From NCBI GenBank assembly GCA_018817385.1, contig JAHIUA010000099.1:27629-91628 (forward strand): a DNA stretch of 64,000 bases, in the 5' to 3' direction. The notes below the pieces were generated by a model. That model had not been told where the DNA came from, did not search any database, and saw only the letters and a program-made list of their open reading frames with translations. A program made the translations under genes and the position numbers. Shown here one piece after another: positions 10,570 to 13,813 of this stretch (position 1 is its first letter; every line of letters starts with the position of its first letter). This stretch comes from Pseudomonadota bacterium. Its GTDB lineage: Bacteria > Desulfobacterota > Desulfobulbia > Desulfobulbales > Desulfocapsaceae.

Positions 10570-10638
10570 GCCCCGCGGCCGTCTTTTCATCGTCTTCCAG
10601 CACCTCTTTTGGCCACGCCGCTTTTCAAGGACTCCTTC

Positions 10639-11295
10639 ATGCTTCTTGCTGACTTCGGCACCTCCTACTCTAAGATTCTGGACACCAGCTCGACAAACGG
10701 ACCGCAACTCATTGCCAGTCGAGACCTTGACCGTAACCTGCAGGTAGATATCGGAACCGGCCACAACGGCAAACGGCATTGCCGCCACTATGTCAATGAA
10801 CTCACAGCCCTGGCCAGAGGTGGGATCAGCCTCATCGACGCAGAGTCATTCACCCTTCTTGACTGCGGCAGCCGCGATATCAAGTATGTTGCCTACAGTG
10901 AGGGAAAAATAGAGGATATGGGCTGGAATGCCGAATGCGGAGCCTCCATGGGCTTCACCATTGAGCTCCTGGAAAAATATTACGATCTCGACTTTAGAAC
11001 CATTGAGGTCCCTGCGACCTCTTTTTCCGTTACCTGCGGGGTCTTGGGAATGAGTCACATCTTCGATGCCGTGGTAAGCGGCAGCAGCGAAGCAGAGGCC
11101 GTGGCCAAGTTTGTCAAAGGAATTGCCATTAATGCCTATAACTTCGCCAAACGTCCGCAAAGAATTTATCTCTCCGGAGGACTCTGCGACAATCCCCTTT
11201 TTGTCAGCGCATTCCCCTGTCCTGTTGTTCCCCTGGGACGCTTTGTTCTCCTCGACGGACTGAAGGCCTCCTGTGAGCAATTGGGGCTGCAGTAG
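10639..11295 (+). CDS. Small ASKHA (BadF/HgdC-type) ATPase activase
   Basis: The 218-residue product resembles activators of 2-hydroxyacyl-CoA dehydratases and benzoyl-CoA reductases. LLADFGTSYSKILD is the phosphate-1 loop, LLDCGSRDIKYVAY corresponds to the DIGGQDxK motif, NAECGASMGF corresponds to the NDKCAAGTG motif with its cluster-binding Cys, and VTCGVLGMSH may supply the second cluster Cys. IYLSGGLCDNP is the adenosine site. The family is usually about 260 residues. ATG 10639 has AAGGA seven bases upstream, so it is preferred to ATG 10609. No dehydratase or reductase subunit is in the window; the unassigned gene just before it is the likely partner. Confidence 0.78.
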   Translation: MLLADFGTSYSKILDTSSTNGPQLIASRDLDRNLQVDIGTGHNGKRHCRHYVNELTALARGGISLIDAESFTLLDCGSRDIKYVAYSEGKIEDMGWNAECGASMGFTIELLEKYYDLDFRTIEVPATSFSVTCGVLGMSHIFDAVVSGSSEAEAVAKFVKGIAINAYNFAKRPQRIYLSGGLCDNPLFVSAFPCPVVPLGRFVLLDGLKASCEQLGLQ

Positions 11296-11390
11296 AGTAT
11301 GACTGCCTAAGAAGGGCCAGCACATGGCTTAACGGATACTGCCAATTCTATTTCTTGTGACCTTCAGTCAACGAGGAAAATCTTTACTCG

Positions 11391-11530
11391 GAGTGTGGCC
11401 CTGGTAAACGGGATCTTTGCGCCAAAGGTCAAGACTCTCACCCGGCAGTTGTCAGGGAACAACGTGGAAACCTCAGCAGGAAACAGCTGACGCCGGTGAT
11501 GAACAGCAAGCCGGCACTCAGTAGAAGTAC
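11391..11530 (+). other. Possible group II intron 5' fragment
   Basis: From the GTGTG at about 11397 the sequence contains stem-loop pieces (GGCCCTGGTAAACGGGATC, TTTGCGCC, GTTGTCAGGGAACAACGTGG, GACGCCGG...CCGGC) that recall domain I of bacterial group II introns, which begin GUGYG. No intron-encoded protein or domain V is found nearby, so at most this is a relic. The 3' part overlaps repeat copy 2. This is recognition by eye only. Confidence 0.3.
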
Positions 11531-11600
11531 AGCCCAAGGGGTGAAAGGACCTTTACCAAATTCTCTGCAAAAAAAATGAAAAGAATTTCTCAGGCACTAA
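11490..11600. repeat. 111-bp imperfect repeat, copy 2
   Basis: This is the second copy of the element at 603-713, with the same length, the same GCCGG...CCGGC hairpin and the same A-rich 3' tail ending CACTAA. It lies in a 620-bp non-coding stretch between the activase gene and the riboswitch, about 200 bp before the aptamer. Similarity to copy 1 stops on both sides. Confidence 0.7.
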
Positions 11601-11744
11601 GGCCTGCAACTGCCTGCAAGCGACTGACAGGACCATGAACAGTTTCTATCTCTCTCTCCCCTCCCAACCCTTTCAGTCATATGGTCTCTCTGCTGTTCTT
11701 CCCGCCCCTCCCCCTCTTTCTGCCCCATGTACCACGTCGTGCAA

Positions 11745-11773
11745 TTGACGCAAGATGGTTTCTTGCATACCAT
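11745..11773 (+). promoter_or_regulatory. Weak candidate promoter upstream of riboswitch
   Basis: TTGACG (11745-11750) and TACCAT (11768-11773) are separated by 17 bases and lie about 30 bp before the aptamer. The -35 box is good and the -10 box is poor. Confidence 0.35.
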
Positions 11774-11802
11774 AATACAAGAAGAACATTCCATTTGATT
11801 GG

Positions 11803-11880
11803 CTCAAGATAAAGCCAAACTTGCCGTGAGGCAGGGACGGAAAGCAAACGGGTCTCAATAGATAGCCGGGCTGCCTTGAA
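11803..11880 (+). ncRNA. Cyclic-di-GMP-I (GEMM) riboswitch
   Basis: The sequence fits the GEMM-I aptamer. P1 pairs TCAAG (11804-11808) with CTTGA (11875-11879). The first internal hairpin is CTTGCC-GTGA-GGCAGG with a GNRA loop (11820-11835). GGGACGGAAAGC follows, and the 3' half contains GGTCTCAATAGATAGC and CCGGGCTGCC. Aligned to the Vibrio Vc2 aptamer, the position equivalent to G20 is G (11814), which favours c-di-GMP over cyclic AMP-GMP. The 21-46 pair, G-C in Vc2, is C-G here (11815 and 11840), a compensatory change. A terminator overlaps the 3' half, so ligand binding should allow transcription of the downstream exported protein. Confidence 0.85.
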
Positions 11881-11902
11881 AGAGGGTAGTCCGGCTTTTT
11901 TT
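11864..11902 (+). terminator. Riboswitch expression-platform terminator
   Basis: AGCCGGGCTGCC (11864-11875) pairs with GGGTAGTCCGGCT (11884-11896), followed by a run of seven or more T. The 5' arm is also the 3' half of the c-di-GMP aptamer, so the two folds exclude each other. Confidence 0.85.
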
Positions 11903-11919
11903 ATTGAAGGAGAAATGCA

Positions 11920-12639
11920 ATGAAACGAAAGATCACTCTTACTGTAACATGTGCTTATCTCATCATCGCGTTAACGACATTGCTCACTGGCATACCAGCT
12001 TACGGCCAACAAGTTGTAACGGCTCCTTATTTCCCCCTCTATCCTGGTAGCTGGTGGAAGTATAGCAAAAATGGAACAGAGACATATGTTGAGACAGTAC
12101 TGACAGATCCAGTTGTTGTGAATTCTGTCCTTACAACGGTCATAGCGAGACCAGAAGAAATGGAATATGTCACCAACGATTCATTCGGTATTCGCGAGCA
12201 TAGAATAAAAGAGAACTCTTTTGATTACACGGTAACGTTCATACCACCGGTATTGCTCTCCCCTCCTCTGGCCACACTGGGTCAACTGACAGACAGTCAG
12301 GGGACTGCTCGTTTTGACATTCCATCAACAGGGACATTTGACATCGCCTACCGTGCCAGTACAGTACCATTGACTTTTGAATCAATTTCTGTCCCTTACG
12401 GAACATTTGAATCGGTTAAAATCAAAACGACATTCAGGATGTTTGGCACCATTAATGGGATGACGGTTGACGAATCGTCAACCGCGTATACTTGGCTTGC
12501 CAAAAATATTGGCAGTGTAAAGAGGATCGAGTATTACGACGGGAAAGCAGATGAGGAAGTTCTGATAGACACAAATTTACCCATGATAAAGCCCATCCTC
12601 TCTCCACTCCATTTTCTTCTACTCAAACGAGAGAGCTGA
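11920..12639 (+). CDS. Exported protein of unknown function under c-di-GMP riboswitch
   Basis: The 239-residue product starts with a clear signal peptide: MKRK, a hydrophobic core TCAYLIIALTTLLTG and a cleavage site after PAYG. No lipobox Cys is present, so the mature form should be periplasmic or secreted. The mature part begins with YFPLYPGSWWKYSKNG, a pattern seen in small exported proteins whose function I do not know, and is rich in beta-prone Val/Thr. AAGGAG precedes ATG 11920. It is the only gene between the riboswitch and a terminator. Regulation by c-di-GMP suggests a role in surface attachment, matrix or motility, but that is inference. Confidence 0.85.
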   Translation: MKRKITLTVTCAYLIIALTTLLTGIPAYGQQVVTAPYFPLYPGSWWKYSKNGTETYVETVLTDPVVVNSVLTTVIARPEEMEYVTNDSFGIREHRIKENSFDYTVTFIPPVLLSPPLATLGQLTDSQGTARFDIPSTGTFDIAYRASTVPLTFESISVPYGTFESVKIKTTFRMFGTINGMTVDESSTAYTWLAKNIGSVKRIEYYDGKADEEVLIDTNLPMIKPILSPLHFLLLKRES

Positions 12640-12646
12640 TCGGTCC

Positions 12647-12672
12647 CTTCTCTTCGGGAGAAGATTTTTTTT
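12647..12672 (+). terminator. Rho-independent terminator
   Basis: CTTCTC-TTCGG-GAGAAG followed by ATTTTTTTT, eight bases after the stop of the exported-protein gene. Confidence 0.88.
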
Positions 12673-13018
12673 GCACAGCGATGCTGCCTTCCAGTACATT
12701 CCTGGGCCCTAAAAGTCTTTTTAGCTGGACCGACGAGACGAAGCCACAGCGGACAAAAAAGGATAGCTATCCAGCAGACAAGTGGTTTTTGGCGCTGCGA
12801 TCGCCTTCCTCTGCGGAGCGTGTCCTCAGTCAAATAATGGTTCGTTGCTGCAAGAGCTCGAATGCAACCTATTGCGCTGTGGGATATGGCCAAAACCGGA
12901 CAGCAACAAATCTCCTATCAATCGTCAGCCAACAGGCCTGACAAATAACTTCCCCTTCCGCACTGATGCCTTGAGGCAGCAGCGCCAAGAGTGCCACTTG
13001 ACAATGACTGCCAATCAG
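12673..13018. other. Convergent intergenic region
   Basis: This 346-bp stretch lies between convergent genes. Overlapping frames on both strands have no recognisable protein features, and I see no RNA fold or repeat. It contains one GCGATCGC octamer near 12798. Confidence 0.4.
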
Positions 13019-13813
13019 CTACCTCCAGGTTATTTTCAGTTCATCTCGCTGAGGGATGTGACGATAGCGGAATTTGGGATAGCCAAGCATCAGTGCCGTA
13101 TAGACCTGATGATTTTCAGGAAGATCAAGGGCTGCGACAATCGGCTCATAATGCTGGGCAGCCTGGACAAGAAAGCCGGCCCAGCAACTGCCAAGCCCGT
13201 AACTATGGGCAGCCAGATCGAGGTAGGCGGTGGCCAGGGTGCAGTCTTCAATCGGATGTTCACTGGAGAACGGATTGGCATGGGCAATAGCCAGGTGAGG
13301 GGCACCTCGCAATACCTTGTCCTGGCCCTGCCCCCAGGCCCGGGTGAGACCGGGAAAGATCTTCAACTCCTTCATCCAATCGACCACCAGACCGGCTAGC
13401 CGCTTCACTTCATCGCGATTTTCAACCATCAGCCAGTGAACCGGCTGACCATTATGGGCGCTGGGGGCATAGCGACTGACGTCAAGTATGCTTTTTAAGG
13501 TAGAGTGGTCAACGGCTCTTTTTTTATAGGTCCGGATGGAACGTCGACTGAGAAGAAAATGTTCAACTGCATCTGGAGAGGGCAAAAGACTCGCCTCTAT
13601 GGCAAGACTCCCGGCAAAGGGTGAAACTGTTATATCCAGAGCATCAGATATGCAGACGGCCATACAGTGACCGCAGCGAATACATTTTTTAATCGCTGCC
13701 TTGCGTAACTGGGGAAATCCCTCTTTGTCCTGATTTATGAGATCAAAGGGGCATTCTGCTATACAGGAGTAACATTTTTTACACTGCTCCTGGTCGACAC
13801 TGAGACTAATCAT
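13019..13813 (-). CDS. Ferredoxin-nitroreductase fusion
   Basis: The 264-residue protein joins two domains. Residues 1-65 hold two 4Fe-4S sites, CKKCYSCIAECP and CIRCGHCMAVC, as in bacterial ferredoxins. From about residue 85 a nitroreductase domain follows, with the FMN-binding SRRSIRTYKKRAV, RYAPSAHNGQPVHWLMV and GLGSCWAGF motifs. Such fusions occur in anaerobes and use ferredoxin-level electrons to reduce a substrate on FMN; the substrate cannot be told. No signal peptide is present, so it is cytoplasmic. It is a single gene, divergent from the DUF362 gene 283 bp away. Confidence 0.92.
   Translation of the reverse strand: MISLSVDQEQCKKCYSCIAECPFDLINQDKEGFPQLRKAAIKKCIRCGHCMAVCISDALDITVSPFAGSLAIEASLLPSPDAVEHFLLSRRSIRTYKKRAVDHSTLKSILDVSRYAPSAHNGQPVHWLMVENRDEVKRLAGLVVDWMKELKIFPGLTRAWGQGQDKVLRGAPHLAIAHANPFSSEHPIEDCTLATAYLDLAAHSYGLGSCWAGFLVQAAQHYEPIVAALDLPENHQVYTALMLGYPKFRYRHIPQRDELKITWR

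Follow-up and report, generated by a model that had tools for sequence, protein, structure and literature searches.

The RNA described here belongs to the class covered by the Rfam families c-di-GMP-I (RF01051) and c-di-GMP-I-GGC (RF03167). The pilM riboswitch of Geobacter metallireducens is an ON switch whose terminator takes the 3' strand of the aptamer and sequesters C75, the cytosine that pairs with the ligand; it senses cyclic AMP-GMP (3',3'-cGAMP) and is associated with pilus assembly (PMC9262584). Mutant G20A of this class binds cGAMP (PMC7288161), and an engineered form carrying G20A and C92U binds c-di-AMP (PMC7288161, PMC9049102). Regulons with many copies, linked to surface or envelope genes, are described for Geobacter sulfurreducens, with 17 GEMM-I riboswitches, and Clostridioides difficile, with 16 predicted ones (PMC6456294, PMC6200980), and the G. 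sulfurreducens set is mostly of the cyclic AMP-GMP type, with 13 GEMM-Ib members (PMC8835794). The close known kin of the protein encoded at our locus are exported proteins similar to YmcC and GfcB (PDB 4fvs, 3fzx and 2in5; Pfam PF21347, DUF3108_like). The literature search, which returned listings, contained nothing on point about GEMM copy numbers, about a regulon of this kind in related sulfate reducers, or about YmcC, GfcB or DUF3108 together with a riboswitch.

The window is the whole stretch of DNA analysed, 64,000 nt long, and positions without a contig name refer to it. A scan of the entire window against Rfam with cmscan shows only one riboswitch above cut-off (Table 1), whose scores exceed both the gathering score of RF03167 (59; E 3.5e-13) and the cut-off of RF01051 (35). 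The sequence-only reading had proposed a full GEMM-I aptamer from 11803; the aptamer is there in full, and it begins at 11805. It resembles the members of both families in its full-length match, in the three pocket bases G20, A47 and C92, all present in the covariance-model alignment, and in the hairpin with a GNRA loop, and it differs from them in a C-G pair at 21-46 and, from the GGC variant, in A47. Taken by itself, the window switch is a real and ordinary class I c-di-GMP riboswitch.

Table 1. Features of the riboswitch-gene unit and its surroundings (base names follow the Vc2 numbering, in which we take G20 to be 11814, C21-G46 to be 11815-11840, A47 to be 11841 and C92 to be 11874).
Feature	Positions	Strand	Basis
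Segment holding the riboswitch-gene unit	11270..13019		Flanking-gene comparison, 8 same-genus genomes
Promoter-like element TTGACG, 17 nt, TACCAT	11745..11773	+	Consensus scan, 9/12
Class I c-di-GMP riboswitch aptamer	11805..11879	+	RF03167 65.3 bits, full length; RF01051 55.9 bits
Vc2 G20 equivalent, base G (predicts c-di-GMP, not cyclic AMP-GMP)	11814	+	Covariance-model alignment
Hairpin, GUGA (GNRA) loop at 11826-11829	11820..11835	+	Covariance-model structure line mapped to sequence
G46 (partner of C21 at 11815) and A47 equivalents	11840..11841	+	Covariance-model alignment
Intrinsic terminator hairpin, 14 bp	11864..11896	+	Pattern scan and script; U tract 11897-11902
C92 equivalent, within terminator 5' arm	11874	+	Covariance-model alignment and stem coordinates
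Ribosome-binding site AGGAG	11908..11912	+	Read directly
Gene of the likely exported protein (239 aa; DUF3108_like; YmcC-like fold predicted)	11920..12639	+	PF21347; model pLDDT 89.4; signal-peptide rule
Terminator-like hairpin past the gene	12647..12663	+	Pattern scan; single-gene unit

An adenine at position 20 is the mark of the cyclic AMP-GMP (GEMM-Ib) class. The window RNA shows a G in its place, as the earlier reading had seen, and G20, A47 and C92 together point to c-di-GMP over cyclic AMP-GMP as the predicted ligand. The same pocket was followed in 53 copies of the genus: the genome that contains the window (G000, 5.38 Mb) contributes all its 22, a second genome (G018) 19 of its 23 and a third (G002) 12 of its 13. 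A script reads G20, C21 and C22 opposite G45, G46 and A47 in 50 copies, and the other three, examined by eye, show G20, the C21-G46 pair and A47, two of them with a U-A pair at 22-45. Position 92 is C in 49 copies by script and in L102 by model alignment, U in two, and unreadable in L029. In one locus from each of 29 of the 32 relatives in the order that have a match, read by eye in stretches confined to the aptamer, the 21-46 pair is C-G in 22 and G-C in seven, and A20 occurs in one (L050). The earlier reading treated the swap of this pair from G-C to C-G as covariation supporting the local fold. The pair is C-G as described and the covariation is real; however, since all 53 genus copies and 22 of the 29 relatives carry it, the swap backs the pair across the order and says nothing special about the window copy, for which it was rejected as independent covariation. 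The swap thus marks a clade.

The host very likely makes c-di-GMP, given that its genome has 37 matches to the GGDEF domain (PF00990). The selectivity site was read in 30 of these loci: 27 have Asp, one has Ser (L143, G000:C19:13224-13694, VVDTHGHLNGS), one has Ala (L148, G000:C40:116768-117238, VVDTHGHLLGA) and in one the site was not located (L142). Serine there is the mark of Hypr synthases of cGAMP (PMC6456294), so this host may also contain another cyclic dinucleotide. It is very improbable that the true ligand of the RNA is cyclic AMP-GMP, as in the GEMM-Ib riboswitches of Geobacter, and not c-di-GMP. The platform layout is the same as that of the cGAMP-sensing pilM riboswitch (PMC9262584), and the single Ser locus and the single A20 relative can be read in favour of cyclic AMP-GMP, but the Asn used by GacA is missing from L143, most GGDEF loci have the ordinary Asp, G20 is present in all 53 genus copies, and the window copy, with both G20 and C92, led to the rejection of cGAMP as its ligand. 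Elsewhere in the genome, at G000:C57:27553-28428 (L024, L147), the end of a GGDEF domain lies some 320 nt ahead of a same-strand riboswitch, behind which a likely exported protein is encoded.

The two copies with U in place of C92 are orthologous (L006, G000:C99:76410-76484, and L084, G018:C95:38484-38558), and in the proteins encoded behind them the signal peptide is followed by KVVVIPL or NVVIIPI. By analogy with the engineered G20A/C92U form, which binds c-di-AMP, the natural G20/U92 form may prefer a ligand that contains adenine, and the two copies offer a natural test of whether switches of this kind can change their ligand. Another variant arrangement is found in L089 (G018:C121:5032 and 5160), where two aptamers stand in tandem, their starts 128 nt apart, with a terminator arm each.

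The terminator stem has 14 pairs, eight of them G-C, a loop of 5 nt and a T-rich tail immediately following, and three terminator-like sites are found between 11640 and 12720 by pattern scan, against a shuffle mean of 0.7. Its 5' arm is part of the aptamer, as had been claimed from the sequence: each of the 14 bases falls within it, C92 and the 3' side of P1 among them. Folding of the full leader is predicted at -41.4 kcal/mol when the terminator forms and at -24.6 kcal/mol when the aptamer pairs are enforced. As the terminator fold is the more stable one, termination is the default (OFF) state and the ligand must act during transcription; with a gap of 16.8 kcal/mol, kinetic control is the sole option left. 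The promoter-like element upstream is one of two sites given by the consensus scan, against a shuffle mean of 1.6, which is not above chance alone.

The sign of the switch cannot be deduced from the riboswitch class alone. The leader is built like that of the pilM ON switch, which predicts that c-di-GMP turns on the gene at 11920-12639, in agreement with the direction proposed by the sequence-only reading; the window RNA differs from pilM in its c-di-GMP signature and in preceding a gene for a DUF3108_like, likely exported protein. At low c-di-GMP, the 3' half of the aptamer, namely the P3 strand, C92 and the P1 strand, would pair with the downstream arm, and this terminator pairing would halt transcription ahead of the gene. 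At high c-di-GMP, the ligand would clamp C92 and P1 while RNA polymerase is still near, the terminator would come too late to form and the mRNA would be completed. It is considered highly probable that the 3' part of a class I c-di-GMP aptamer doubles as the 5' arm of a terminator and that c-di-GMP blocks this terminator and switches on the one gene behind it, whose product is likely exported. The aptamer, its overlap with the terminator and the single gene are seen in the sequence itself, and ligand and sign are inferred from it.

The terminator-aptamer overlap is widespread among the copies. In the genome of the window, the 5' arm of the best terminator lies wholly inside the aptamer in 19 of the 22 copies (script, at most one mismatch); L019 and L029 are exceptions and L028 fits only with two mismatches. 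Under a looser rule, with at most two mismatches and an arm starting within the last 25 nt of the aptamer, 51 of the 53 genus copies have the stem, and the two without it are again L019 and L029, both of the window's own genome. Over nine pairs in 49 anchored copies, 98.2% of the pairs are standard, against a shuffle mean of 94.4%, and the Watson-Crick fraction reaches 0.828, whereas the 2000 shuffles average 0.750 and peak at 0.798, none being as high; the shuffle preserves columns, and kinship between copies remains in this statistic. Throughout these 49 copies the stem has retained its two arms, which covary.

This conservation bears on a further alternative, that the unit turns its gene off or is just a non-functional relic, and that the terminator forms at any ligand level or another antiterminator reverses the sign. 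The energy gap in favour of the terminator agrees with such a reading, which is nonetheless held to be very improbable: the arms are kept and covarying; by eye, the 40 nt between the aptamer and the start codon hold just the 3' arm of the terminator, its tail and the ribosome-binding site; and a paralogous unit on contig C28 keeps the aptamer, a 12-bp terminator and the gene despite drift of the aligned unit to 72% identity. A different, perhaps non-standard ligand, suggested by the assignment to the GGC variant and by the higher score with RF03167 than with RF01051, can hardly be credited, because 'GGC' presumably names bases 20, 47 and 92, the RF03167 consensus has G at 47 and the window RNA has A, so that the name does not fit it, was rejected as a sign of another ligand and led to the aptamer being left out of that variant, and because RF01051 scores at least as high as RF03167 in some copies (64.8 against 64.5 bits at C44:98386; 64.2 against 59.3 at C10:4494).

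The gene behind the c-di-GMP-type aptamer starts 7 nt past AGGAG, and the terminator-like hairpin downstream closes the unit, so the single gene of the earlier reading is borne out. By a crude rule, the N-terminus of the protein is signal-peptide-like. The protein matches PF21347 with 32.9 bits (cut-off 27), best over residues 153-209, and its structure model, of high mean pLDDT (Table 1), has a predicted YmcC-like fold; an earlier AlphaFold2 model built from three sequences reached a pLDDT of 34 and was discarded. The protein differs from GfcB and YmcC in two respects: its N-terminus (...TGIPAYGQQ) has no cysteine at the likely cleavage site where a lipobox would place one, and its gene is single, with its own leader and terminator-like hairpin, and not part of a capsule or exopolysaccharide operon. 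The nearest genes encode a Fer4/nitroreductase protein and a BadF-type protein, the latter by a weak Pfam match that stays under the cut-off. The description of the product as an orphan does not quite hold, in view of the Pfam match, the predicted fold and a paralogue, 54% identical, that also lies behind a riboswitch. We infer its role from the predicted fold and the company of its gene: the product may be an envelope or secreted beta-sandwich or barrel protein that helps to build a sessile cell surface or matrix, and it might do so jointly with products of the sister riboswitch genes, which include adhesin-like, outer-membrane and polysaccharide-processing proteins, both steps being weaker than the predicted switching.

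The protein is lineage-restricted. Homologue searches with the protein and with a three-sequence profile return the same three proteins, the query included; a wider profile reached 28 proteins, and a search of contigs gave only two distant relatives, in Moorella and in an uncultured Clostridia bacterium. The paralogue is encoded on contig C28, in the riboswitch-led unit mentioned above, which also keeps TTGAC and much of the -10 stretch of the window's promoter-like element. The last 133 nt of this contig (L036) are identical to its first 133 nt and to the start of contig C64 (L013), which may point to a unit of 5.3 kb, circular or repeated in tandem, that carries the paralogous riboswitch gene; by eye, this unit also holds a substrate-binding protein and a chemotaxis receptor.

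No copy of the protein turned up in 19 further genomes of the genus. The genes flanking its own, BadF-type (10609-11295) and Fer4/nitroreductase (13019-13813), are 1.72 kb apart in the window and direct neighbours in five of eight same-genus genomes (G012, G008, G001, G004 and G006), where the aligned ends are 11-395 nt apart. In the remaining three they are 12.5 kb apart (G003), on separate contigs (G002) or without a close second gene (G018); G002 and G018, which have the most similar flanking gene, thus tell nothing about the empty site. Ten of these loci show no Rfam family at cut-off. The missing protein and the adjoining flanks suggest that the riboswitch-gene unit probably arrived recently in the lineage, although loss of the unit in the relatives could also have left these sites empty. 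With the recent arrival as the preferred reading, the window gene illustrates how a new exported gene can come under the control of a second messenger.

The window riboswitch had been regarded as dedicated to one gene; it is instead one of 22 in its genome, mostly located before likely exported proteins. These 22 RF03167 matches have E values of 7e-4 or better, ten of them above the cut-off of the family, and 21 are above the cut-off of RF01051, the weak one being C82:1099. Like the regulons of G. sulfurreducens and C. difficile, this set comprises many copies linked to surface or envelope genes; unlike them, all its copies are of the c-di-GMP type with G20, and 19 of the 22 have terminators that overlap the aptamer. 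The set outweighs the single switch: of its 22 c-di-GMP-type aptamers, 19 show the layout predicted for ON switching, and the majority of the 22 stand before likely exported proteins.

The first gene behind the aptamer, picked by eye from lists of ORFs, was readable for 21 of the 22 copies; at C37:244 the contig ends. By the crude signal-peptide rule, 17 of the 21 look exported, against seven of 56 window ORFs (Fisher p 2.6e-8), a background of long, non-overlapping ORFs rather than curated genes, with the window gene included, that may contain spurious ORFs, so that its exported rate may be too low. The four first genes that fail the rule are L013, L023, L026 and L029. Pfam scans of six of the 27 downstream proteins show an FG-GAP repeat protein, a GH16 protein and an omptin-type outer-membrane protein, and three without a family; by eye, the downstream proteins also include a collagen-like protein, large proteins with repeats and acetylation proteins of the MBOAT/AlgJ-like type. 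The riboswitch thus provides, from sequence alone, a list of likely surface-life genes in a dsr-carrying (sulfate-respiration) lineage. At C37:121041 (L023), the riboswitch directly precedes dsrJ and dsrO, each scoring above its NCBIfam cut-off; part of a sulfate-respiration electron-transfer complex would thereby come under c-di-GMP.

Two short motifs recur behind the copies. PWPMFxPA occurs five times in the genome, three of them in the first gene behind a riboswitch, and KVVxxP[LF] occurs 12 times (two for the reversed pattern used as control), four of them in the first or second gene behind one. The chance of this for random sites, counting 2.5 kb behind each copy, is about 1e-6 and 3e-7, respectively, uncorrected for the excess of exported genes in these stretches. 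PWPMFxPA and KVVxxPL recur in likely exported proteins of the same genome at C16:19616, C33:68989, C57:14448 and others. Several of the surface proteins carry one of these hydrophobic tags, with KVVVIPL following the signal peptide or WPMFLPAI at an end, and the tags may be a sorting or anchoring signal.

Seven copies of the genome (C35:1308, C57:16206, C16:32142, C37:121041, C43:5231, C76:586 and C15:160121) are alike at 76-84% identity over a cassette of about 200-250 nt that contains the promoter, the aptamer, the terminator and a little further. Relative to the first base of the aptamer, the pairwise matches start between -16 and -110, mostly around -60 to -105, and stop between +95 and +178. 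By eye, the genes behind these seven copies differ and look unrelated, and C76 has no clear gene closer than 1.2 kb. The same hairpin sequence is found in seven such copies in G018 among those read and in one in G002. The window copy is outside this group. It is tentatively proposed, as a possibility short of an even chance, that a portable promoter-riboswitch module allows the clade to bring exported genes that are lineage-specific and newly acquired under a single surface programme induced by c-di-GMP. The upstream half of the cassette shows, by eye, an inverted repeat similar to TGAAT-N4-ATTCA, and this half is present without an aptamer at five further places (L150, L151, L152, L153 and L154). 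L151 precedes a gene with an RVVVIPL tag, and L152 precedes or lies in an ORF that ends in FFWPMFLPAITG and a few more residues; the tags at these two aptamer-less places suggest a transcription-factor regulon that overlaps the riboswitch regulon.
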